DNA from: Verrucomicrobiales bacterium
GTDB lineage: Bacteria; Verrucomicrobiota; Verrucomicrobiia; Limisphaerales; UBA11320
Direction: 5' to 3'
Assembly: GCA_016793885.1 (NCBI GenBank)
Contig: JAEUHE010000046.1
Location: forward strand, 1 to 33,882
DNA length: 33,882 bases
Translations under genes and position numbers: made by a program
Shown: positions 19,729-30,857 of the stretch, piece by piece
Layout: each line of letters starts with the position of its first letter
How positions within the stretch are numbered: the stretch's first letter is position 1
Notes under the pieces: model-generated
What the model was told of the DNA's origin: nothing
The model's input: the letters and a program-made list of their open reading frames with translations, nothing else
The model's database searches: none

Positions 19729-19805
19729 CTGCTCCGCTCGGGCGTCGGAAATCAAGGGGAGACTGATGACCCTCCAGCCGTAGCGGGGGCCTCAATAAGC
19801 TCGGA

Positions 19806-19829
19806 AACCGATAGCCGGTTCTTTCTTTA
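19806..19829 (+). terminator. Weak terminator-like hairpin after nnr
   Basis: AACCG (19806-19810) and CGGTT (19816-19820) flank a 5-nt loop and are followed by CTTTCTTTA. The stem is only 5 bp, so termination would be weak. Confidence 0.35.
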
Positions 19830-19890
19830 GCCCCGTGCCATTTTTCCAGTAGCGCTTTCCGTAAGCCACGTTTAAGATTCTAATTACACC

Positions 19891-20058
19891 ATGCTACCTG
19901 GGGTGGCAGTTCTGTTCGGTTTTGCCGTGCTGTCGAGAGGAGCCTCTTGGGCTCGATCGGATGTGCCTGCGGATTCGAGCTTATTGTTGGACGAAGACCT
20001 TCCTTCGGTGTTCCCAACGGAAATGGGTTATAGAGGTAGCGTAGGAGTTGGCTTATGA
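19891..20058 (+). CDS. Possible 55-aa leader ORF overlapping the giant gene
   Basis: An ORF of 55 aa beginning MLPGVAVLFGFAVLSRGASW, which looks like a signal peptide, then acidic SLLLDEDLPSVFPTEMGYRG. Its stop TGA overlaps the first ATG of the giant gene in the ATGA arrangement (20055-20058). That suggests translational coupling, or an old N-terminal fragment. No ribosome binding site or family is visible, and it may be a chance frame. Confidence 0.33.
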   Translation: MLPGVAVLFGFAVLSRGASWARSDVPADSSLLLDEDLPSVFPTEMGYRGSVGVGL

Positions 20059-23000
20059 ACATGCACGGATCTTGCAGAAGCTGGCGTTGGGTGATTCTTC
20101 CACGGAGGCAGGCTCTGAACCCCAGGGCACGGGAGCAGTTCGGCGTGCGTCGCCTTGCCACTGTCATCCTGATCTTCTGTCTCGCCGGAATCCAAGGCCT
20201 CTCGGCCACCTATGGACTCGACGAACGTAAGGCGGTCGCCCCGTTCCTGAACCGAGCATTCCCGGAGGATCTTTCCGCTGTCAGTGGAAGTTGGTCCACA
20301 GTGAAGGCTTTCCCTAATCTGAGCTTCGAAGATCCAGTCAATCTCACCTTTGCACCTCGGTCGACTCGAATGTATGTCTGCGGTCGGCAAGGACAGATCT
20401 GGTCGTTTGAGAACAACCCGGGGACCAGCGCCAAAACGACCGTTCTCGACATCCGTAGCCGCGTGCAAGGCTACGGCCTCTGCGGATTGCTCGGCATGGC
20501 GTTTCATCCGGAGTTCGGCCTCCCCGGATCACCGAATCGTGGCTATTTTTACGTTCACTATCGCTACTCGACCAATCCTTTTGTGGGCCCCGGGCTAGTC
20601 CCGTCCGGATCGCAGGGGTTCAACCGACTCTCCCGGTTTACCATCCCGGATGGATCGTCCGTGGCGGATCCCGAGTCGGAGCAGATCTTGGTAAGCCAGT
20701 ACTGCCGGCACACCTGGCACAACGGAGGCTCAGTTCTTTTCGGACCGGACGGCTACCTTTATTGGAGTGCTGGGGACGAAGGGGAAGGGGCCGCGTTGAT
20801 CCTTTTCAGCGCCCAGCGGATCAATCGTGGCTTGTTTGGTGGTGTGTTCCGGATCGACGTCGATAAGAATCCCGCTCGTAGCCATCCGATTCGACGTCAA
20901 CCGCTGTCGGCCTCTCCTGATTTGCCGGTGAGCTTCTCCGCCAACTACTACATCCCCAACGACAATCCTTGGCAAGATCCTGACGGGGGCGTTCTGGAAG
21001 AGTATTTCGCGCTCGGTTTCCGCAGCCCGCACCGAATCTCGTTCGATTTTGAGAGCGGGCATCTTTGGCTGGGCGACGTTGGCGCCTCGCTCTACGAGGA
21101 AGTTAACCTGGTGGAGAAGGGCAAGAACTACCAATGGCCGGATCGAGAAGGGACCAGCGATTTTCCCATGGGACCGTTCACGCCTTCCCTCGGAGTACAG
21201 TCTCCTCCCGTCCACCAGTTCAAGCACGAGAATGGCCTGAATTGCATCATTGGTGGCTATGTCTATCGGGGGCCCGAGCATCGAGTAGAACTGGGTGGTA
21301 AATACATTTTTGCGGATAACGGCAGCGGACGGATCTGGGCGATGGACTACGATGGGGTGAACGACCCCCGAGTGACCTACCTCTGCAATATGCCCCCGGG
21401 AGCCTATCACACCGGAATCTCCACTTTTGGCACGGACCACCAAGGGGAGCTATACATGTGTCACCTCGGGAACGGACAGATCTACAAGCTCTCGAGCAGC
21501 ATCTCCGCCGGAACAGTGCCGAAGCTCATCTCCCAAACCGGGTTCCTCTCGGATCCCGCCTCATTTCGCGTCGCAGACACCATGATCCCCTACCAGATGA
21601 ATGTACCCTTCTGGTCGGATGGCGCCATCAAGTCGAGGTGGTTCGCCGTGCCCGGCACGGTCGCCCCGTACGGTGCGAATGAGACCGTGGGCTTCTCCTC
21701 AAATGGCTTCTGGAACTTCCCGGCTGGATCGGTTTTTGTAAAGCATTTCGAGCTGCCCATCGATGAGTCCAATCCCGCGATTCTCAAGCGACTCGAAACC
21801 CGGTTTCTGATCCGGAACACCAACGGGTATGTCTACGGTCTGACCTACAAATGGCGTGCGGATGGGACGGATGCCGACCTGCTCACCACCAGTCTCCAGG
21901 AGGAGATCTCCATCCGCACCTTGGATGGGGGGGAGCGCAAGCAGACTTGGTATTATCCCAGCCGGCAGGAATGCCTGGCCTGTCATAACACGCAAAGTAA
22001 AGGCGTTCTGGGGGTAACCGCCCGCCAGCTCAATCGAGAGTTTCTGTACCCCCAAACCGGAAGGACGGACAATCAGCTCAGGGCGCTCAATCACGTTGGA
22101 CTTTTTTCACCGCCGATCCAGGAATCCGATATTCCTCATTTCCCGACTCTGACCCGCGAGGGTGAGGATGTTGCGACTTTGGAACGCCGCGCGCGCTCAT
22201 ATCTCGATGCGAACTGCAGCTACTGCCACAATCCCGCCGTGGGTGCCGCCTACTTTGACGCCCGCTATGAAACTCCCCTGGTCTCCCAGAACCTCATCAA
22301 CGGGCTCTTCAACAACCCACTCGGCCTGGAATCCCCCTCCATCATCACTCCTGGCAGCACCAGTCGCTCTATTCTCTACCACCGCCTGAGCAGCTTGGAC
22401 ACCGTTCGCATGCCACCGCTGGGGAGGAACGTCGTCGATACCAATGGTGTGCTCCTAATCGCAACCTGGATCGACAGTCTTCCGCCCAGGATTTCGTCGG
22501 TTCCCCGGCAGACACTGTTTGAGGACACTCCCTCCGCTCCCATCCTTTTCACGGTCGAAGATGTGCAAACGCCCGCCTCCGCCCTGATTGTGTCCGTGGC
22601 ATCGTCGGATTCCAGCCTAATACCAGTGGACGGCCTGGCGCTCGGCGGCAGCGGCAGCCAGCGTCAATTGATCATTACCCCAAGCCGCGATCGAAGCGGA
22701 ACGGCGGAAATTTCCTTAACAGTCCGTGACTCCTTCAACACTGAGTCGGTCACTCGGTTCAGCGTCACGGTCCAGCCGGTGAATGATGCACCCACCATCG
22801 CCTTGATTCCCGGCCATATCACCCAGGAAGCTACTCCGATCGGCCCGATCTCGGTTACGATTGCCGATCCCGAGTCGCCTGCCTCGGCTTTGACCGTAAG
22901 CGCTTCGTCCTCCGATTCCCTGCTGGTTCCCCCCTCGGGATTGGTCTTGGATGGAAGCGGCGGGGTACGCGGACTGACCATCACCCCAGCTCCCCTGCGG

Positions 23001-26000
23001 TTCGGCACCGCGGTCATCCGGGTGGTAGTCAGCGATGAGGGCCTCAGCTCGGCGACGGAGTTTCTGTTGCAGGTAAACTCCACCACTCTGGTCCAAACCA
23101 ACGCCGTGTTTTTCGAAGCGGAGGCCGCGGAGCATACTCCCCCCGTTTTGGTTCAACCTGACCCGACGGCATCGGGCGGCGCCTACGCGAGTTCGGCTGT
23201 CGCAGGTCAGGGAGGAATGGAGTTCCCGGTGCTGGCCTTAACCTCGGGCGACTATTCGGTCTGGGCTCGAGTCTGGATTACGGGCCAGGGTTTGGCTGGC
23301 TTCGGGGTGAAGGTGGACTCTGCTCCGGAGGATATCTTCGATTTGCCCATTGAGGACGGAGGGCAGGGAAGATGGCAATGGGTGCCACTCAACGGTCGTG
23401 GAGGCGCCCAGCCGTTCGCGATCAACCCGCGGCTGCTGCGGCTCACGCCGGGAGCTCACACTCTTCGGTTTCGACCGCTGAGCGCCGCAGCGCGGTTGGA
23501 TCGTATTCTTTACTCCGTCGACCGCACGTTTGTTCCAGATGACGCACCCGTTGCGGAAGCTTTCGAGTTGACGACCCTGGAGGACACCCCCGTCGATGTC
23601 ACCCTTCGTGGTGTCGATCCCGAGCGCCGGCCGCTTGCTTATCGTATTCTGGCCCAGCCTCAGCACGGGCGGCTGACCGGAAACCCGCCCCTGGTGTCCT
23701 TCTCTCCCGACCCCGATTTCGCAGGAACCGATTCGTTCAGCTATTGGGTGAACGATGGGCAGCTGGATTCTTCGGTGGCTGTAGTCCGGGTCACTGTGCA
23801 ACCGGTCAACGATCCGCCGACCCTTTCGAGTATTCCGAACGTGGTGGTGGACGAGGACCTCGGTTGGAGTGTGCCATTCGTGGTTGGCGACGTGGAGTCG
23901 GTAGCCGGGGAGTTGGTCCTTTCGGCCAGCAGCAGTAATGAAACTTTGATCCCGAGCACCCAGCTTCGGATCACGGGGGAGGGAGCCGACCGAGTCTTGG
24001 CGGGGGATCCGCTGCCCAATCAGTCGGGGACAGCCCTGATCACCTTGCGAGTGACGGATCCGCAGGGAGGAACTTCGAGTCGTGACTTTACCCTCACCGT
24101 TTCGTCCATCAACGATCTGCCTTCCCTCTCTGCCTTGCCTGATCAGCGTATCCCGGAGGATCACGAGGGCTTGTTGATTCCATTCCGGATATCCGATTTC
24201 GAGACGGCCTCTGCTAGCCTCCAGGTTACCGTGTCCTCGTCGAATCGGGATCTGTTTCTGGGGGGAGATCTGGCGGTGCGGGGTGACTCCGAAGATCGGC
24301 AACTGAGCCTTCGACCCGCACCTCATGCATTTGGTGAGTCTCAGGTGACGGTGGAGGTTCTCGATACCCAGGGCGGCTCGGCCCGGACGGTTTTTCGTGT
24401 GCTTGTGGATCCAGTGAACGATGCTCCGACGGTTGCGCTCATCGAGGACCTCGTGATCGATCAGAACGCGGGTCCGACCGTGGTGCCCTTCGAGGTGGCC
24501 GACGCCGAATCGGCCGCGGACCAACTCCTGGTCTCGGTGTGGTCGAGCAATCCCCGGCTTGTGTCTTCCTCCGGCCTGGTATTGGGAGGATCGGGAGCTT
24601 CCCGCACGCTGACAGTGACCCCGGTTGCGGGACGTTTTGGTGATGCCGAGATTCTCATTCAGGTGGCAGACGAAGCGGGAGCCACCGTCGTCGGCAAGCT
24701 CCGCTGCCGAGTCCGCTCCTCCGCCAACGCCTTCGCGCCGTCCATCACCGAGATTGAGCCGCTGATCCTCCTGGAGGACCACGTCAGCGAGAGCATCTCG
24801 TTCACGGTGCAGGATGCCGCCACCCCACCGGATCAGCTTTCGATTCTGGCGATCGCGGCTAACCCTTCCCTGATTTCGGAGACTGGCCTGGTGATCCAAG
24901 GTACCGGTGCGGAGCGAACTCTCGTGATTACGCCAGCCCGCGACGCCTCTGGAACGACCACTGTCTACATTTCCGCACGCAATCAAGCGGATGGGTTGGC
25001 CGTCCGATCGTTCGAAGTGACGGTACAGCCGGTGAACGATGCACCGCAGGTGGTTGGGTTGCGGGATCTTATTCTGCAAGAGGACGCGGCGAGCGAGGTA
25101 ATTCCCTTCGACGTTCAAGATGTTGATGCTTCCCCGGGAAGCCAGGCCCTCGTGCAGGTTCGGTCCTCGGATGAGGGGCTGGTTCCCGCTTCCGGTTTAC
25201 ACCTGGAGCAAGTGGGCTTGGGCTGGAGTCTGCAGGTGCGACCGGGCGCCAACGCCTCCGGGACTGCGACCGTGACGGTCACCGCCACCGATGCCGAGGG
25301 TGCCCGAGGTGAGTCTCAGTTTCAGGTCTCCGTTCAGCCGGTGAACGATCCGCCGACGCTCGCCGCGATCGAGGATCTCATCACGGGAGAAGATGTCCCA
25401 CTTGCGCCCATTCGGATCCAGGTCACCGACCGTGAAAGTCCGGCGCTGGCGGTTCAGTTGACCGCCTCCTCCAGCAACCCGTCGCTGGTGCAAGACAGCG
25501 GGTTTGAGTTTGCGATCGTGGACGAGAACCCCTACTTGGTGATTCATCCGAACGCGAATCGTTCTGGCAGCGCCACCATCACGGTGAATGCCACCGACCC
25601 CGATGGCGGGGTCACCTCGCTCAGCTTCCTGTTGACTGTGCAGCCGATCAATGACGCGCCGCGGGTCCAGACTGTAGCCAGTCTCACTGTGCCGCTGGGG
25701 ACGGAGGTTCCTCTTGTTGAAGCCGCCGTGGAGGATTTGGAAAGCGACGCCTCCTTGCTGGTGTTGCTCGCCAGTTCTTCGAACCCGGTGTTGCTCCCTG
25801 AAAGCGGGATTGTCCTGGGTGGAAGCGGTTCGCTGCGAACCGTCAGCCTCTCTCCGGCGCCAGGTCGATTCGGGAACGTGGACGTCACCTTGATGGTGCG
25901 GGATCCGGAAGGTCAAAGCTCGAGCAATGTCTTCAGGCTCATTGTCACTCATCCGGATGGTCTGCAACCGCCGTCGATCAGTGGTCTGCGCGATCTGGAG

Positions 26001-28958
26001 ACCATGGAGGATGTGCCGGTGACCCTGTCTGGAATCCTAATCCAAGATCCGGACTCCAGTCTCGATTCATTGAGCATCACCGCGGTTTCGCAGAACTTGG
26101 TCCTGTTGCCTCAGGAGGGCGTTTCCCTGCAAGGCACAGGTGAGGAGCGTTCCTTGGTTCTCAGCCCGGGCCTCAACCAGTACGGGGCGACCCGGCTGCT
26201 CTTCACGGTCCTGGGTCCGAACGGTGGGGTTTCTAGCGCGTGGATCGCTCTCCAGGTGCAGGCGGTGAATGATGCTCCGACCGTGACGGTGCCGGCGCTC
26301 ATTGAGATGGATGAGGACACCCCCAGCACCCCGGTCCTGCTCACTTTCTCGGATGATGCGCTGGTCTCTCAACTGTTGGCCATACGTTGGACCTCAGAGA
26401 ACGGCGAGCTTCTCTCCGATTCATCCCTGGTCTTCACTCCGGGCGGCGGCGGGCTGCAATTGGTGATTCATCCCAATCCTAATGCTGCGGGGTTGGCGAG
26501 AGTGGTTTTGGAGGTTACCGACGGGGAGGGAGCATCGGCCATCCTGCCCATCCAGGTTAACATTCGTCCCGTCAACGATCTGCCATCGATCGGAGAAGTC
26601 GCCACCACCATTCTCACTCCGGAGGACACGGCCAGTACGCCCATTGTGATTCCCGTGGCGGATGTTGAGACAGCGGCCGGCGACTTGCTTCTCTCGCTAG
26701 AAGTGTCAAACCCGGATCTTATCGCTCCGGAGGGTGTCAGTTTCGGCGGCTCAGGAACGGCTCGGACCCTTTCCGTTACGCCGCGTCCGGACGCTTCAGG
26801 GACAGCGGAGCTAACCTTGGTTTTGCGCGACCAGGACGGCGGGGAGGTTCGGCGGCCGCTTGCACTGACGGTAGTGCCGGTGAACGACCCTCCCGTGCTT
26901 CCCGAATTGCCACCCATTGAGATGGTGCTGGGTGAGGCCGGCGCCACCCTTAGCTTTAATCTCTCCGATCTGGAATCGCCGGCTGAAGAAATCTTGGTTT
27001 ACATCACCAGCGACAATTCGTTGCTCGTTCCTCCGGGTAGCACCCAGGTGCACGCGAACGGAACTCAGCGAATTCTGACTATAACCCCCGCGCCTGGCTT
27101 GTTTGGCGTTGCCACCCTCTTGGTTGAGGCTCAGGACCCGCAAGGTGCCTCGAGCCTGCGCGAGGTCCGCTTTACCGTGCGGCATCCAACTGGGAATCAG
27201 CCTCCCGAAATCTCATCGATTGCCGAACAGTCCACCTCCGAGGACGTTCCGCGTTCGGAGATTCAACTGATCGTGAGCGATGTGGAGTCGGCTCCTGAGG
27301 AGTTGACGCTGATCGCCCGGTCGACCAACTCGGAGGTTCTGGCCGATGAAGGAATTCAGATTCTGGGAACGGGCAGTGCTCGCACCTTGAATCTTTCACC
27401 GATCCTGAATCAGTCCGGAATTGCCGGTGTGGTCCTGATACTGCGCGATCCGCACGGCGGCGTGGCTGTCCGTCAGTTCCCGCTTACGGTTTCTGCTGTA
27501 AACGATGCGCCCTCGCTGGAAGCCCTGTCCGATGTGACGGTGGACGAGGATCAGCCCGTGCCTCCGATTCCGTTGCTGCTCAGTGATATCGAGAGCGATG
27601 TGCAATTACTGGCGGTGAGCGTGGGCTTGCCCGAAGGTTCAGGCCTGCGACTGGATCAAATCGCCATCGAGGGGATTGGGGCGGAGAGAGTCTTGAAACT
27701 GACTCCGGATACAAATCAGTATGGAACCTTCGAATTGACGGTTCGGGTTGATGACGGCCGAGGTGGCATTACTCGCCGCAGCTTCGTGCTGACTATACGC
27801 CCGGTCGCCGATGCTCCGCGGATCTCCGAATTGGCTTCGGTGGTCTTGCCTGAGGATTCGTTGTTAGAGGGAATCGAGTTCACAGTGAGCGATCCTGATA
27901 CTCCGCTCAATCAGCTTCAGGTAGAGGTCTCCAGCGACAACTCTGAGTTGCTGCCTGCGGCAAACTTGGTCGTGACGGGAACCGAGGCTTCCCGGCGACT
28001 CCGGCTCGTGCCGGTTGCGGATCGTTCCGGCTCGGCCAACGTAACTATTCTTGTGCGTGATCTGGAAGGAGCCCAGGCCAGCACCCAGTTCACCGTCACT
28101 GTGACCCCGGTCAACGACGCTCCGGAAATCGCTCCGATCGCCAATCTGGAGGGGCTCGAAGACCAGGTGGGACTGGGTGTGGACGTGACGTTATCGGATC
28201 GGGACGATCAGCCCTCGGTGCTCCGAGTGGTGGGGCGTTCCCAGAACCAGGCTCTGCTTCCTGATGCAGGCATCACGGTGACCGGAACTGGCTTGCAGCG
28301 GCGTCTCAACCTCTCGCCTCGTGCCGATCGCTTCGGTCAGGCGCGTGTCTTTGTGAGTGTGTATGATGCGAATGGAGACATCGCGACCACCTTCTTTGAT
28401 GTGACACTGCGACCGGTCAATGATGCCCCCACTCTCGATGCTCCCAAGGACATCACCTTGGCCTTCCTCTCCTCCCCTGCGCGTATCCCGCTCACCGGTT
28501 TGGGGGCGGGTGGCTTCGAGGAAGTGCAGGGACTTTCCTTGTCGGTCAGTTCGGCCAATCCCACGCTCCTGCCCACCCCTGAGATCCAATATGTTGGCGG
28601 TGACAATCGGGCCACGCTCGTGCTCTCTCCCGTCGTGGGCGCGTTTGGTGAATCGCGGGTGACCATTACGGTTCAGGACGATGGCCCCCTGGATCTGGGG
28701 GGAGCTAACACCACGGTTCGATCCTTTTTAGTGAACGTGTTGCGCTTGCCTCGACTCACGGCGGTACGAAGTCCGCGCCCCGCGCTGATCCTGACCTGGC
28801 CAGGTTGGGCGACGGACTACGTTCTCGAGACGCGGCTCGCTACCGAAACGGCTTGGAGCCAGGTTCCCGACCGTGTCTCCAAGGTGGGCGAGGAGTTTCG
28901 CGTCCAGTTGGACATCGCCCGGCCTACCCGCTACTTCCGGCTCAGGCGCATCGAATGA
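20055..28958 (+). CDS. Giant exported GSDH-diheme cytochrome-Ig repeat protein
   Basis: 2967 aa. After a long N-terminus comes a hydrophobic signal (RRLATVILIFCLAGIQGLSA, residues 32-51). Residues about 85-480 are a glucose/sorbosone dehydrogenase (PQQ) propeller: TWHNGGSVLFGPDGYLY with the candidate catalytic H222, FRSPHR (R323, S324) and LWLGDVGASLYEEVNLV. Residues about 490-810 resemble the SO2930-type diheme cytochrome region, with heme motifs CLACH (640-644) and CSYCH (721-725) and a possible Met ligand in RMPPLG (M786). Residues about 812-2897 are about 19 Ig/cadherin-like domains of roughly 102 aa joined by PVNDAP-type linkers, with a carbohydrate-binding-like insert at about 1017-1162 (FFEAEAAEHTPP...). 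The last 70 residues (LTWPGWATDYVLE ... RYFRLRRIE) resemble a C-terminal module common in Verrucomicrobia. It probably oxidises a sugar-like substrate outside the cytoplasm and passes electrons to its own hemes. The GTG at 20145 with GGGAG 9 nt upstream is an alternative start. Confidence 0.92.
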   Translation: MNMHGSCRSWRWVILPRRQALNPRAREQFGVRRLATVILIFCLAGIQGLSATYGLDERKAVAPFLNRAFPEDLSAVSGSWSTVKAFPNLSFEDPVNLTFAPRSTRMYVCGRQGQIWSFENNPGTSAKTTVLDIRSRVQGYGLCGLLGMAFHPEFGLPGSPNRGYFYVHYRYSTNPFVGPGLVPSGSQGFNRLSRFTIPDGSSVADPESEQILVSQYCRHTWHNGGSVLFGPDGYLYWSAGDEGEGAALILFSAQRINRGLFGGVFRIDVDKNPARSHPIRRQPLSASPDLPVSFSANYYIPNDNPWQDPDGGVLEEYFALGFRSPHRISFDFESGHLWLGDVGASLYEEVNLVEKGKNYQWPDREGTSDFPMGPFTPSLGVQSPPVHQFKHENGLNCIIGGYVYRGPEHRVELGGKYIFADNGSGRIWAMDYDGVNDPRVTYLCNMPPGAYHTGISTFGTDHQGELYMCHLGNGQIYKLSSSISAGTVPKLISQTGFLSDPASFRVADTMIPYQMNVPFWSDGAIKSRWFAVPGTVAPYGANETVGFSSNGFWNFPAGSVFVKHFELPIDESNPAILKRLETRFLIRNTNGYVYGLTYKWRADGTDADLLTTSLQEEISIRTLDGGERKQTWYYPSRQECLACHNTQSKGVLGVTARQLNREFLYPQTGRTDNQLRALNHVGLFSPPIQESDIPHFPTLTREGEDVATLERRARSYLDANCSYCHNPAVGAAYFDARYETPLVSQNLINGLFNNPLGLESPSIITPGSTSRSILYHRLSSLDTVRMPPLGRNVVDTNGVLLIATWIDSLPPRISSVPRQTLFEDTPSAPILFTVEDVQTPASALIVSVASSDSSLIPVDGLALGGSGSQRQLIITPSRDRSGTAEISLTVRDSFNTESVTRFSVTVQPVNDAPTIALIPGHITQEATPIGPISVTIADPESPASALTVSASSSDSLLVPPSGLVLDGSGGVRGLTITPAPLRFGTAVIRVVVSDEGLSSATEFLLQVNSTTLVQTNAVFFEAEAAEHTPPVLVQPDPTASGGAYASSAVAGQGGMEFPVLALTSGDYSVWARVWITGQGLAGFGVKVDSAPEDIFDLPIEDGGQGRWQWVPLNGRGGAQPFAINPRLLRLTPGAHTLRFRPLSAAARLDRILYSVDRTFVPDDAPVAEAFELTTLEDTPVDVTLRGVDPERRPLAYRILAQPQHGRLTGNPPLVSFSPDPDFAGTDSFSYWVNDGQLDSSVAVVRVTVQPVNDPPTLSSIPNVVVDEDLGWSVPFVVGDVESVAGELVLSASSSNETLIPSTQLRITGEGADRVLAGDPLPNQSGTALITLRVTDPQGGTSSRDFTLTVSSINDLPSLSALPDQRIPEDHEGLLIPFRISDFETASASLQVTVSSSNRDLFLGGDLAVRGDSEDRQLSLRPAPHAFGESQVTVEVLDTQGGSARTVFRVLVDPVNDAPTVALIEDLVIDQNAGPTVVPFEVADAESAADQLLVSVWSSNPRLVSSSGLVLGGSGASRTLTVTPVAGRFGDAEILIQVADEAGATVVGKLRCRVRSSANAFAPSITEIEPLILLEDHVSESISFTVQDAATPPDQLSILAIAANPSLISETGLVIQGTGAERTLVITPARDASGTTTVYISARNQADGLAVRSFEVTVQPVNDAPQVVGLRDLILQEDAASEVIPFDVQDVDASPGSQALVQVRSSDEGLVPASGLHLEQVGLGWSLQVRPGANASGTATVTVTATDAEGARGESQFQVSVQPVNDPPTLAAIEDLITGEDVPLAPIRIQVTDRESPALAVQLTASSSNPSLVQDSGFEFAIVDENPYLVIHPNANRSGSATITVNATDPDGGVTSLSFLLTVQPINDAPRVQTVASLTVPLGTEVPLVEAAVEDLESDASLLVLLASSSNPVLLPESGIVLGGSGSLRTVSLSPAPGRFGNVDVTLMVRDPEGQSSSNVFRLIVTHPDGLQPPSISGLRDLETMEDVPVTLSGILIQDPDSSLDSLSITAVSQNLVLLPQEGVSLQGTGEERSLVLSPGLNQYGATRLLFTVLGPNGGVSSAWIALQVQAVNDAPTVTVPALIEMDEDTPSTPVLLTFSDDALVSQLLAIRWTSENGELLSDSSLVFTPGGGGLQLVIHPNPNAAGLARVVLEVTDGEGASAILPIQVNIRPVNDLPSIGEVATTILTPEDTASTPIVIPVADVETAAGDLLLSLEVSNPDLIAPEGVSFGGSGTARTLSVTPRPDASGTAELTLVLRDQDGGEVRRPLALTVVPVNDPPVLPELPPIEMVLGEAGATLSFNLSDLESPAEEILVYITSDNSLLVPPGSTQVHANGTQRILTITPAPGLFGVATLLVEAQDPQGASSLREVRFTVRHPTGNQPPEISSIAEQSTSEDVPRSEIQLIVSDVESAPEELTLIARSTNSEVLADEGIQILGTGSARTLNLSPILNQSGIAGVVLILRDPHGGVAVRQFPLTVSAVNDAPSLEALSDVTVDEDQPVPPIPLLLSDIESDVQLLAVSVGLPEGSGLRLDQIAIEGIGAERVLKLTPDTNQYGTFELTVRVDDGRGGITRRSFVLTIRPVADAPRISELASVVLPEDSLLEGIEFTVSDPDTPLNQLQVEVSSDNSELLPAANLVVTGTEASRRLRLVPVADRSGSANVTILVRDLEGAQASTQFTVTVTPVNDAPEIAPIANLEGLEDQVGLGVDVTLSDRDDQPSVLRVVGRSQNQALLPDAGITVTGTGLQRRLNLSPRADRFGQARVFVSVYDANGDIATTFFDVTLRPVNDAPTLDAPKDITLAFLSSPARIPLTGLGAGGFEEVQGLSLSVSSANPTLLPTPEIQYVGGDNRATLVLSPVVGAFGESRVTITVQDDGPLDLGGANTTVRSFLVNVLRLPRLTAVRSPRPALILTWPGWATDYVLETRLATETAWSQVPDRVSKVGEEFRVQLDIARPTRYFRLRRIE
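20131..20147 (+). promoter_or_regulatory. Alternative ribosome binding site and GTG start of the giant gene
   Basis: GGGAG (20131-20135) stands 9 nt before an in-frame GTG at 20145, which would begin VRRLATVILIFCLAG, a normal-length signal peptide. The ATG at 20055 has no such site and would give a 31-residue longer N-terminus. Confidence 0.45.
22492..28745 (+). repeat. Tandem Ig/cadherin-like domain-coding array
   Basis: Linker codons for (P/A/S)-(V/I)-N-D or variants start at 22776, 23802, 24105, 24411, 25029, 25338, 25644, 26262, 26568, 26877, 27495, 27801, 28107 and 28413. From 23802 on, adjacent ones are 303-309 nt apart or twice that. Doubled gaps contain a domain with a different linker (at about 24738, 25971 and 27204). 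A typical domain reads ED near the start, SSN in the middle, GxGxxRxLxxxP, SGTA and VxDxxG. Confidence 0.85.
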
Positions 28959-29411: not shown

Positions 29412-30857
29412 TTAGGGCTGCTTGCCGGAGTGGGCTCGCAGGAGGAAGGTGGGGAGTTCGCCCTTGCCCTTGATGAGAATGGGGCCTCGGGCTTCGAACT
29501 GAAACAGGCCTCCCAGCTTGAGCTTGGTGGCCTCGCTGACCTGAATCTCACCGGGTTGGCCGTGGGATTCCATGCGGCTTGCCAGGTTCACCGTGTCGCC
29601 CCACAAATCATAGCTGAACTTGCGCCGGCCAATGATCCCGGCGACGACGGGGCCTGAGTGAATACCGACTCGGATGGCGAGTTGCGTGCCGTGGACACGG
29701 TTGAAATCGTGAATGGCTTCCCCCATGGCCAATCCCATGCGGGCGACACGCTCGGCGTGATTGGCGCAGGGAAGGGGCACCCCCCCCACCACCATGTAAC
29801 TGTCGCCAATGGTCTTGATCTTCTCCAGGCCGATGGTTTCCGCGAGACGGTCGAAGGCCGAGAACACCTCGTTGAGCAATTCCACCAGTTTAGGAGCGGG
29901 GGTTTGCTCGCTGAGCTTGGTAAAATTGACTAGATCGGCGAACAGCACGGTGACATCCGGAAAGCTCTCGGCGATGGTTTCCTCGCCCTGCTTGAGGCGT
30001 TCCGCGATGGCGGCGGGCAGAACGTTCAATAACAGGCGCTCGGACTTTTCTCGTTCCGTGCTGAGCTGCTGGAGAAATGCCTGCTCCTGGTCGCGGAGGC
30101 GCTTTTTTTCCAGCCCCGCAGCAATGCGCGTTCGAAGGAGCAGGGGATTGAACGGTTTGGGGAGAAAGTCCTCAGCCCCGAGTTCCACACAGCGAACCAC
30201 ATTGTCCATGTCGGTGGTGCCGCTCAGCACAATGACCGGGATGTTCTGCCAGGCCTCGTTGGCCTTCATCTCTTCCAGAAGCTCATAGCCGTTGATCTCG
30301 GGGAGCAGCAGATCGAGCAAAACCAGATCGATGTTCGAGTGCTTGAGAATGTCCATGGCCTGCGCCCCGTCCTCAGCGATCGAGAGGTTGTAATCCAGGT
30401 TCTGCAGCAGCATCGCGACCAGATCGCGAATCTCGGGTTCATCCTCCACCACCAGCAGGTTGGTGGCTTGGCGGGTGGCCGAAGATTCCGCCAGCATTCG
30501 TTTCTCGGCTTCCGTTTTGTTCGCCGCCAGCCACTTGAGTAGAAAGCGGGTCCCTTTGCTGGGTTGAGCGGGCTGAGGCGCGAGGGTTGCCTGGGCAGGA
30601 GTCACCTGGGTGAGTTCGGCCCGCAACGCATTGGCTCGATCCCGAAGCCCCCGAAACTCAGGCACCAATTGCGGATGACCCAGTGCCTCGGCCTGTGCCA
30701 TGATCTGCTCGGCTAATCCGGCGAGCTCCACCAAGGGAGCTTCCATGAGCAGGCGGCCGCGCGAGAGGAAGAAGGTGTCCTGGTGGGTCGGGGCCGGCGC
30801 GGGCTCGGGGAGGAGAGGTAAGTCTCCCGACGGATTCGATTGGGGTTCAGAGGACAT
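29412..30857 (-). CDS. Response regulator-class III adenylate cyclase fusion
   Basis: 481 aa. A helical N-terminal part (about 30-125) is followed by a receiver domain (about 132-250) with the acidic pocket EDE (138-140), phosphoacceptor D182 in LVLLDLLLPE, S212 and K234 (LPKPF). A linker helix (QEQAFLQQLSTEREKSERLL) leads to a class III cyclase domain (about 300-475): metal-binding D308 (VLFADLVNFT) and D352 (IKTIGDSYMVVGG), base-selecting K348 and D417 (YDLWGDTVNLASR), and transition-state N424 and R428. All residues needed for activity are there and the K/D pair predicts adenylate rather than guanylate cyclase. It probably makes cAMP when a partner histidine kinase phosphorylates D182; no kinase gene is nearby. 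No transmembrane segment is seen, so it is cytosolic. Confidence 0.93.
   Translation of the reverse strand: MSSEPQSNPSGDLPLLPEPAPAPTHQDTFFLSRGRLLMEAPLVELAGLAEQIMAQAEALGHPQLVPEFRGLRDRANALRAELTQVTPAQATLAPQPAQPSKGTRFLLKWLAANKTEAEKRMLAESSATRQATNLLVVEDEPEIRDLVAMLLQNLDYNLSIAEDGAQAMDILKHSNIDLVLLDLLLPEINGYELLEEMKANEAWQNIPVIVLSGTTDMDNVVRCVELGAEDFLPKPFNPLLLRTRIAAGLEKKRLRDQEQAFLQQLSTEREKSERLLLNVLPAAIAERLKQGEETIAESFPDVTVLFADLVNFTKLSEQTPAPKLVELLNEVFSAFDRLAETIGLEKIKTIGDSYMVVGGVPLPCANHAERVARMGLAMGEAIHDFNRVHGTQLAIRVGIHSGPVVAGIIGRRKFSYDLWGDTVNLASRMESHGQPGEIQVSEATKLKLGGLFQFEARGPILIKGKGELPTFLLRAHSGKQP

Follow-up and report, generated by a model that had tools for sequence, protein, structure and literature searches.

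The window analysed here, a stretch of 33,882 nucleotides from a Verrucomicrobiales bacterium, encodes a protein of 2967 amino acids that we read, with modest confidence, as a Sec-exported oxidoreductase, extracellular or displayed on the surface, in which a three-module redox head stands on a long stalk. From the N-terminus, the chain consists of a signal peptide, a GSDH propeller, a heme region (residues ~486-809), two Ig-like domains, a CBM35-like insert, 17 further Ig-like domains, and a C-terminal domain (Table 1). The propeller, through H222 and R323, would oxidize a small saccharide or an alcohol-like substrate, and its cofactor would be either PQQ taken from the surroundings or a different one. 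Electrons may leave or enter via heme 2, which would exchange them with a partner. Heme 1, whose sixth site is probably open, would act as a ligand-binding or catalytic center for O2, H2O2, or nitrogen oxides and not as a plain relay. The acidic array of 19 Ig-like domains and the CBM35-like module may hold the head off the cell or attach it to a polysaccharide; the C-terminal domain would serve as the lineage's putative module for export or surface sorting.

Table 1. Features of the 2967-residue protein and their positions in the window.
Feature	Residues	Position	Strand	Basis
Whole ORF, one exported chain of 2967 aa		20055..28958	+	ORF reading
Signal-peptide-like segment VRRLATVILIFCLAGIQGLSA	31-52	20145..20210	+	hydrophobicity maximum, codons
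GSDH-type six-bladed propeller	~77-485	20283..21509	+	PF07995; predicted fold
H222, counterpart of catalytic His144 of sGDH	222	20718..20720	+	invariant in 47 homologs
R323, counterpart of Arg228 of sGDH	323	21021..21023	+	invariant in 47 homologs
Cytochrome P460/c'-beta-like beta domain with heme 1	~486-690	21510..22124	+	predicted fold, profile-profile, PF16694
K563, counterpart of the P460 heme-crosslinking Lys, motif FPAGSVFVK	563	21741..21743	+	alignments; Lys in 51/55 members
Heme 1 site CLACH	640-644	21972..21986	+	sequence
Class I cytochrome c domain, PSCyt1/CBB3-like	~700-809	22152..22481	+	profile matches, conservation
Heme 2 site CSYCH	721-725	22215..22229	+	sequence
M786, predicted axial Met of heme 2, invariant	786	22410..22412	+	conservation
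Ig-like domains 1 and 2	809-1009	22479..23081	+	profile from repeats
CBM35-like insert	1010-1161	23082..23537	+	profile of relatives
Ig-like domains 3-19, tandem-95/Big_9 type	1162-2896	23538..28742	+	profiles
C-terminal ~70-aa domain ending RYFRLRRIE	2897-2967	28743..28955	+	genome profile

One exported chain and its appended domains

The ORF is single and uninterrupted, with no internal stop. Its ATG start has an AGGAG 7 nt on its 5' side, and the GTG codon of residue 31 could serve as the start instead. The preliminary description had placed a propeller, two heme sites, and an Ig array in one frame, and this observation is confirmed, while its interpretation is partly supported. A frameshift or a set of separate genes is ruled out by the one reading frame together with dozens of fused homologs, and an artefact of chance or frameshift is excluded because 47 homologs match with H222, R323, and both CxxCH motifs invariant. 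Since the signal peptide (residues 34-52) is the only clearly hydrophobic segment in the hydrophobicity profile of the full chain, no anchor helix is present, which agrees with the earlier view of an exported protein without an anchor.

Three terminator-like stem-loops lie in the upstream intergenic region (19758-19908; 0.4 expected), and the gene is therefore probably transcribed alone. The neighboring genes encode an NAD(P)HX dehydratase, MsrP, an adenylate cyclase, and a DUF255 thioredoxin-like protein, none of them clearly related to the ORF. The gene on the 3' side is convergent (29412-30857, minus strand) and encodes an ordinary adenylate/guanylate cyclase with a receiver domain. An operon context was therefore rejected.

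A profile built from the repeats gave exactly 19 Ig-like domains, where about 19 had been estimated, with two before the insert and 17 behind it. The array matches tandem-95 (NCBIfam NF012211) at 347 bits against a cut-off of 90, and PF17963 at 274 bits against a cut-off of 23.6. Pairwise identity among the domains is mostly 20-45%, and domains 4-19 are very acidic, with a pI of 4.1 and 3 Lys among their 1646 residues. Variant linkers and loss of an ED motif recur at every fourth domain (6-7, 10-11, and 14-15; residues ~1454-2481), and the linker variants are repeated at domains 7, 11, and 15. A four-domain higher-order repeat was considered and rejected, the lag-4 identity not being significant (p about 0.1).

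The insert had been described as carbohydrate-binding-like, and the profile of its 14 relatives agrees: it matches CBM35 enzymes, best a GH31 alpha-glucosidase (E=4.7e-5), with weaker matches to other CBM35/CBM6 enzymes; the Pfam matches of the insert itself are below cut-off. In two genomes of the same genus, the CBM35-like module is found in other genes about 10 kb or less from a GSDH-cytochrome fusion (L075/L096 on G003:C168; L078/L105/L108 on G004:C52).

The C-terminal domain, which was not part of the preliminary description, follows the pattern YxLExxxxL...W.......FYRxR; neither this domain nor 15 relatives are matched by any Pfam or NCBIfam model. With a profile, at least 145 copies were found in the host genome (150 of 345 candidates scored). 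In the 30 best copies, 0-5 residues separate the end of the match from the stop codon. Among 20 weaker copies, 15 end no more than 8 residues from the stop, and most of the others end within 18 residues or past the fetched piece; the position is C-terminal in nearly all of the 50 copies inspected. Within the phylum the domain has a patchy distribution, with 22 of 59 genomes carrying it. In other phyla, the same head carries at the same position a T9SS type A tail (above cut-off) or a choice-of-anchor C domain, and weaker myxosortase- and JDVT-CTERM-like tails also occur behind it. T9SS models gave no match in the C-terminal tail of the 2967-aa protein, and type IX secretion was set aside; a search for SprA had no match anywhere and so carries no information. 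Judged only by its position and number, the ~70-aa domain is a candidate for an unnamed export or surface-sorting module.

The propeller and its cofactor

The assignment of the N-terminal part to a GSDH-type propeller with H222 holds: PF07995 (GSDH) matches at E=2e-22 (80 bits against a cut-off of 25), with the best stretch at residues 91-282, and H222 is invariant. The AlphaFold model (pLDDT 89.6) predicts a propeller fold that resembles Asd, sGDH, and HHIP at Z 33-39. The structural match to 3a9g has a Z of 38.8 and an rmsd of 2.8 A over 328 aligned residues. The protein shares with sGDH and Asd the six-bladed propeller, the catalytic His and Arg, and the GSDH motifs, and the wider pocket motif (H..GG, GxRNPxR, EEV, NYGW, EG) is kept across phyla. 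It differs from them in the fusion to heme domains and a stalk and in the residues that would hold PQQ. In sGDH, Lys377 and Arg406/408 bind the PQQ carboxylates (PMC6881789). By sequence alignment only, no counterparts of Lys377, Arg406, or Arg408 were found in any of the 47 homologs, and across the fusion family neither Lys nor Arg is conserved in the segment matching this region. Furthermore, S324 takes the place of sGDH Asn229.

Genes for PQQ synthesis were searched for as well. No pqqC was found by profile search in the host genome, which is 95.7% complete; as a positive control, the same search detected PqqC above cut-off in 5 of 194 genomes of the phylum. There was also no above-cut-off PqqE in the host genome, a result that is uninformative when taken alone, because radical-SAM proteins match in every control. 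Asd of E. coli is a PQQ enzyme that relies on outside PQQ. AA12 binds PQQ although it lacks Lys377 (PMC6881789). Because of these two precedents, for a site without this lysine and for PQQ that comes from outside, the propeller may still use PQQ, which the sequence comparisons do not secure. The earlier assignment as a PQQ dehydrogenase thus stands for the conserved His and Arg, and is not supported at the carboxylate-binding positions or by the search for pqqC.

These results bear on the reading of the protein as a PQQ-dependent sugar dehydrogenase on an Ig stalk, in which the two hemes would form a plain wire for electron transfer. Membership of the GSDH family, to which Asd of E. coli also belongs, the retained catalytic His/Arg pair, and the fused cytochrome argue for it. 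A known parallel is the fungal AA12 quinohemoprotein of Coprinopsis cinerea, a pyranose dehydrogenase (AA8-AA12-CBM1) whose single exported chain combines a GSDH-fold propeller with a cytochrome and a CBM (PMC4332668). However, the fungal protein is a proven PQQ enzyme with a cytochrome b of another fold and no Ig stalk. We regard this reading as fairly unlikely, given the carboxylate-binding residues missing from the alignment, S324, and the missing pqqC, as well as the placement of heme 1 in a P460-like domain with no conserved second axial ligand.

The nearest solved propeller by profile is not a dehydrogenase but human HHIP (E 3e-53, compared with 8e-33 for 3a9g and 1e-28 for sGDH), with which GGxVYRG...LxGxYxFGD...FGEDxxGE is shared. 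This closeness of a bacterial propeller bears on the origin of the animal protein. In a homolog, L070 (4648-12000), a GSDH-cytochrome-like head is followed by PAS, GAF, and HisKA/histidine-kinase domains, and the head may be a sensor there. The profile relationship to HHIP, the homolog with kinase domains, and the Ig array with its CBM-like insert together suggest a non-enzymatic adhesin or sensor, whose propeller would bind or adhere as in HHIP and whose hemes would sense gas or the redox state. HHIP, however, is a signaling antagonist that has no hemes and has lost the arginine (GLHDP in place of the R323 motif), whereas R323 and the pocket motif are conserved across phyla and both covalent heme sites are invariant in the bacterial family. 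A non-enzymatic function is thus distinctly improbable in our judgment, and the oxidoreductase reading is preferred.

Two different heme domains

The two CxxCH motifs of the preliminary description, CLACH and CSYCH, are present exactly as reported and on the same chain, and domain searches matched both the GSDH and the diheme cytochrome families within residues 85-810. TIGR03806 (NCBIfam, SO2930-type cytochrome) matches residues 489-809 over the full model length at E=3.5e-63, and the spacing of the two CxxCH motifs and the conserved residues of the family are present. The score of 213.7 bits is nevertheless below the curated cut-off of 313.3, and the placement behind a propeller is a second difference from the SO2930 family. 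SO_2930 is listed as outer membrane or extracellular (PMC4837345). Cytochrome c assembly genes are present in the host genome.

The "diheme cytochrome" consists of two different domains, and the first of them looks like a relative of cytochrome P460 and not a plain electron carrier. Residues 482-815, folded alone, gave a predicted model with a pLDDT of 93.8. The 16 structures that match it best are without exception cytochromes P460/c'-beta, at Z 4.7-7.4 (the next row is at 3.8), and these matches span about residues 2-211 of the folded region. A Z below 8 would be weak by itself, and three sequence results lend it support. The P460 signal was derived from VIA-align and from profiles and not from Foldseek, which returned nothing at E<0.001 with the cytochrome domain alone. 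In hhalign, the family of the heme-1 domain aligned with PF16694 relatives at P=90.6 and E=1.3e-6. When the 55 family members were searched singly, 14 matched PF16694 weakly (E 0.019-1) and none reached the gathering cut-off. With the CxxCH removed, the P460 profile score was 27.1, compared with at most 18.3 in 100 column-shuffled controls and 8-15 for unrelated profiles. Similarities to cytochrome P460/c'-beta include the predicted beta fold, the CxxCH behind the beta domain, and the lysine of the FxxGTVxVK motif; the differences are an identity of about 10%, an additional segment before the CxxCH, and the multidomain setting.

The lysine at position 563 is found in 51 of 55 members (93%), three stand-alone cytochromes among them, within the family motif FPxGTVxVK. 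In every hhalign mode, FPAGSVFVK was aligned on FRDGTVIVK of NsP460 with K563 opposite Lys106, the residue that cross-links the heme in NsP460 (PMC11928373). The PDB mutant K106L of NsP460 has Leu at the aligned position, and c'-beta proteins have Phe or Met there (PMC11928373). R528, E581, W600, and H644 are invariant in the heme-1 domain. Near the strand that carries the distal carboxylate of P460 the alignment places E581 and R583, either of which may be its counterpart. In two paralogs of the same genome (L067 and L068, on G000:C25 and G000:C183), the K563 position is Gln or Arg and a third CxxCH is present near the C-terminus.

Among the 55 members, H644, H725, and M786 are the only His or Met residues of the heme region conserved at 85% or more. 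On this pattern of conservation, heme 2 is assigned as a class I His/Met heme, and heme 1, which has no invariant second axial ligand, is probably without a sixth ligand from the protein unless K563 itself serves. A similarity of heme 2 to FoxE was weak (E 0.015) and was set aside. Of the earlier proposal that a diheme cytochrome accepts the electrons, the two heme sites remain; the proposal is too simple, given the predicted P460/c'-beta-like fold of the first domain and its lack of an invariant second axial ligand. A stronger claim would be that the SO2930-type "diheme cytochromes", which are widespread in several bacterial phyla and often fused to GSDH, have a catalytic center in which a true P460-type heme is cross-linked to Lys. 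This is tentative, and we consider it rather unlikely at present.

Distribution of the head and its significance

The head is common and not exceptional. The fusion of GSDH with the SO2930-type cytochrome is abundant: the host genome encodes five others (E 3e-132 to 9e-69) in addition to this one, and these six are all of its strong TIGR03806 matches. When the head was sought in related genomes, 45 of 58 had a match, many as full-length fusions. The fusion is also found on named contigs of Planctomycetota, Myxococcota, Gammaproteobacteria, Bacteroidota, and Krumholzibacteriota, which brings the head to six phyla or more; tails for export or anchoring are often attached to it. In the nearest orthologs (46-48% identity), the Ig array is replaced by DUF1349, joined by Big_7 in two of the three. 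A unique architecture is ruled out for the head; of the copies compared, only this one has the array of 19 Ig-like domains. Since the head recurs with other tails, the Ig array and the CBM35-like insert were added locally to a standard head. In the orthologs L060 and L063, an inserted lectin-like DUF1349 separates the P460-like beta part from the first CxxCH, and L047 and L048 have about 185 inserted residues at this point.

In the literature searched, neither a description of the GSDH and SO2930-cytochrome fusion nor a characterised member was found, and the words fusion, fused, and diheme are absent from a 2025 review of P460. Several results weigh against the proposed oxidoreductase: the residues of the PQQ site are not all kept, PQQ synthesis was not found in the host genome, the P460 matches remain below a Z of 8, no single member reaches PF16694, and two paralogs of the host genome lack the lysine of the K563 position.

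P460 chemistry is known mainly from ammonia and methane oxidizers. Should heme 1 prove P460-like, the name "diheme cytochrome" would conceal an enzyme active site, and P460 chemistry would reach many heterotrophs. If the heme is a true Lys-cross-linked P460 heme, the SO2930-type cytochromes would form a large unrecognized class of exported P460-like oxidoreductases outside the nitrogen oxidizers.
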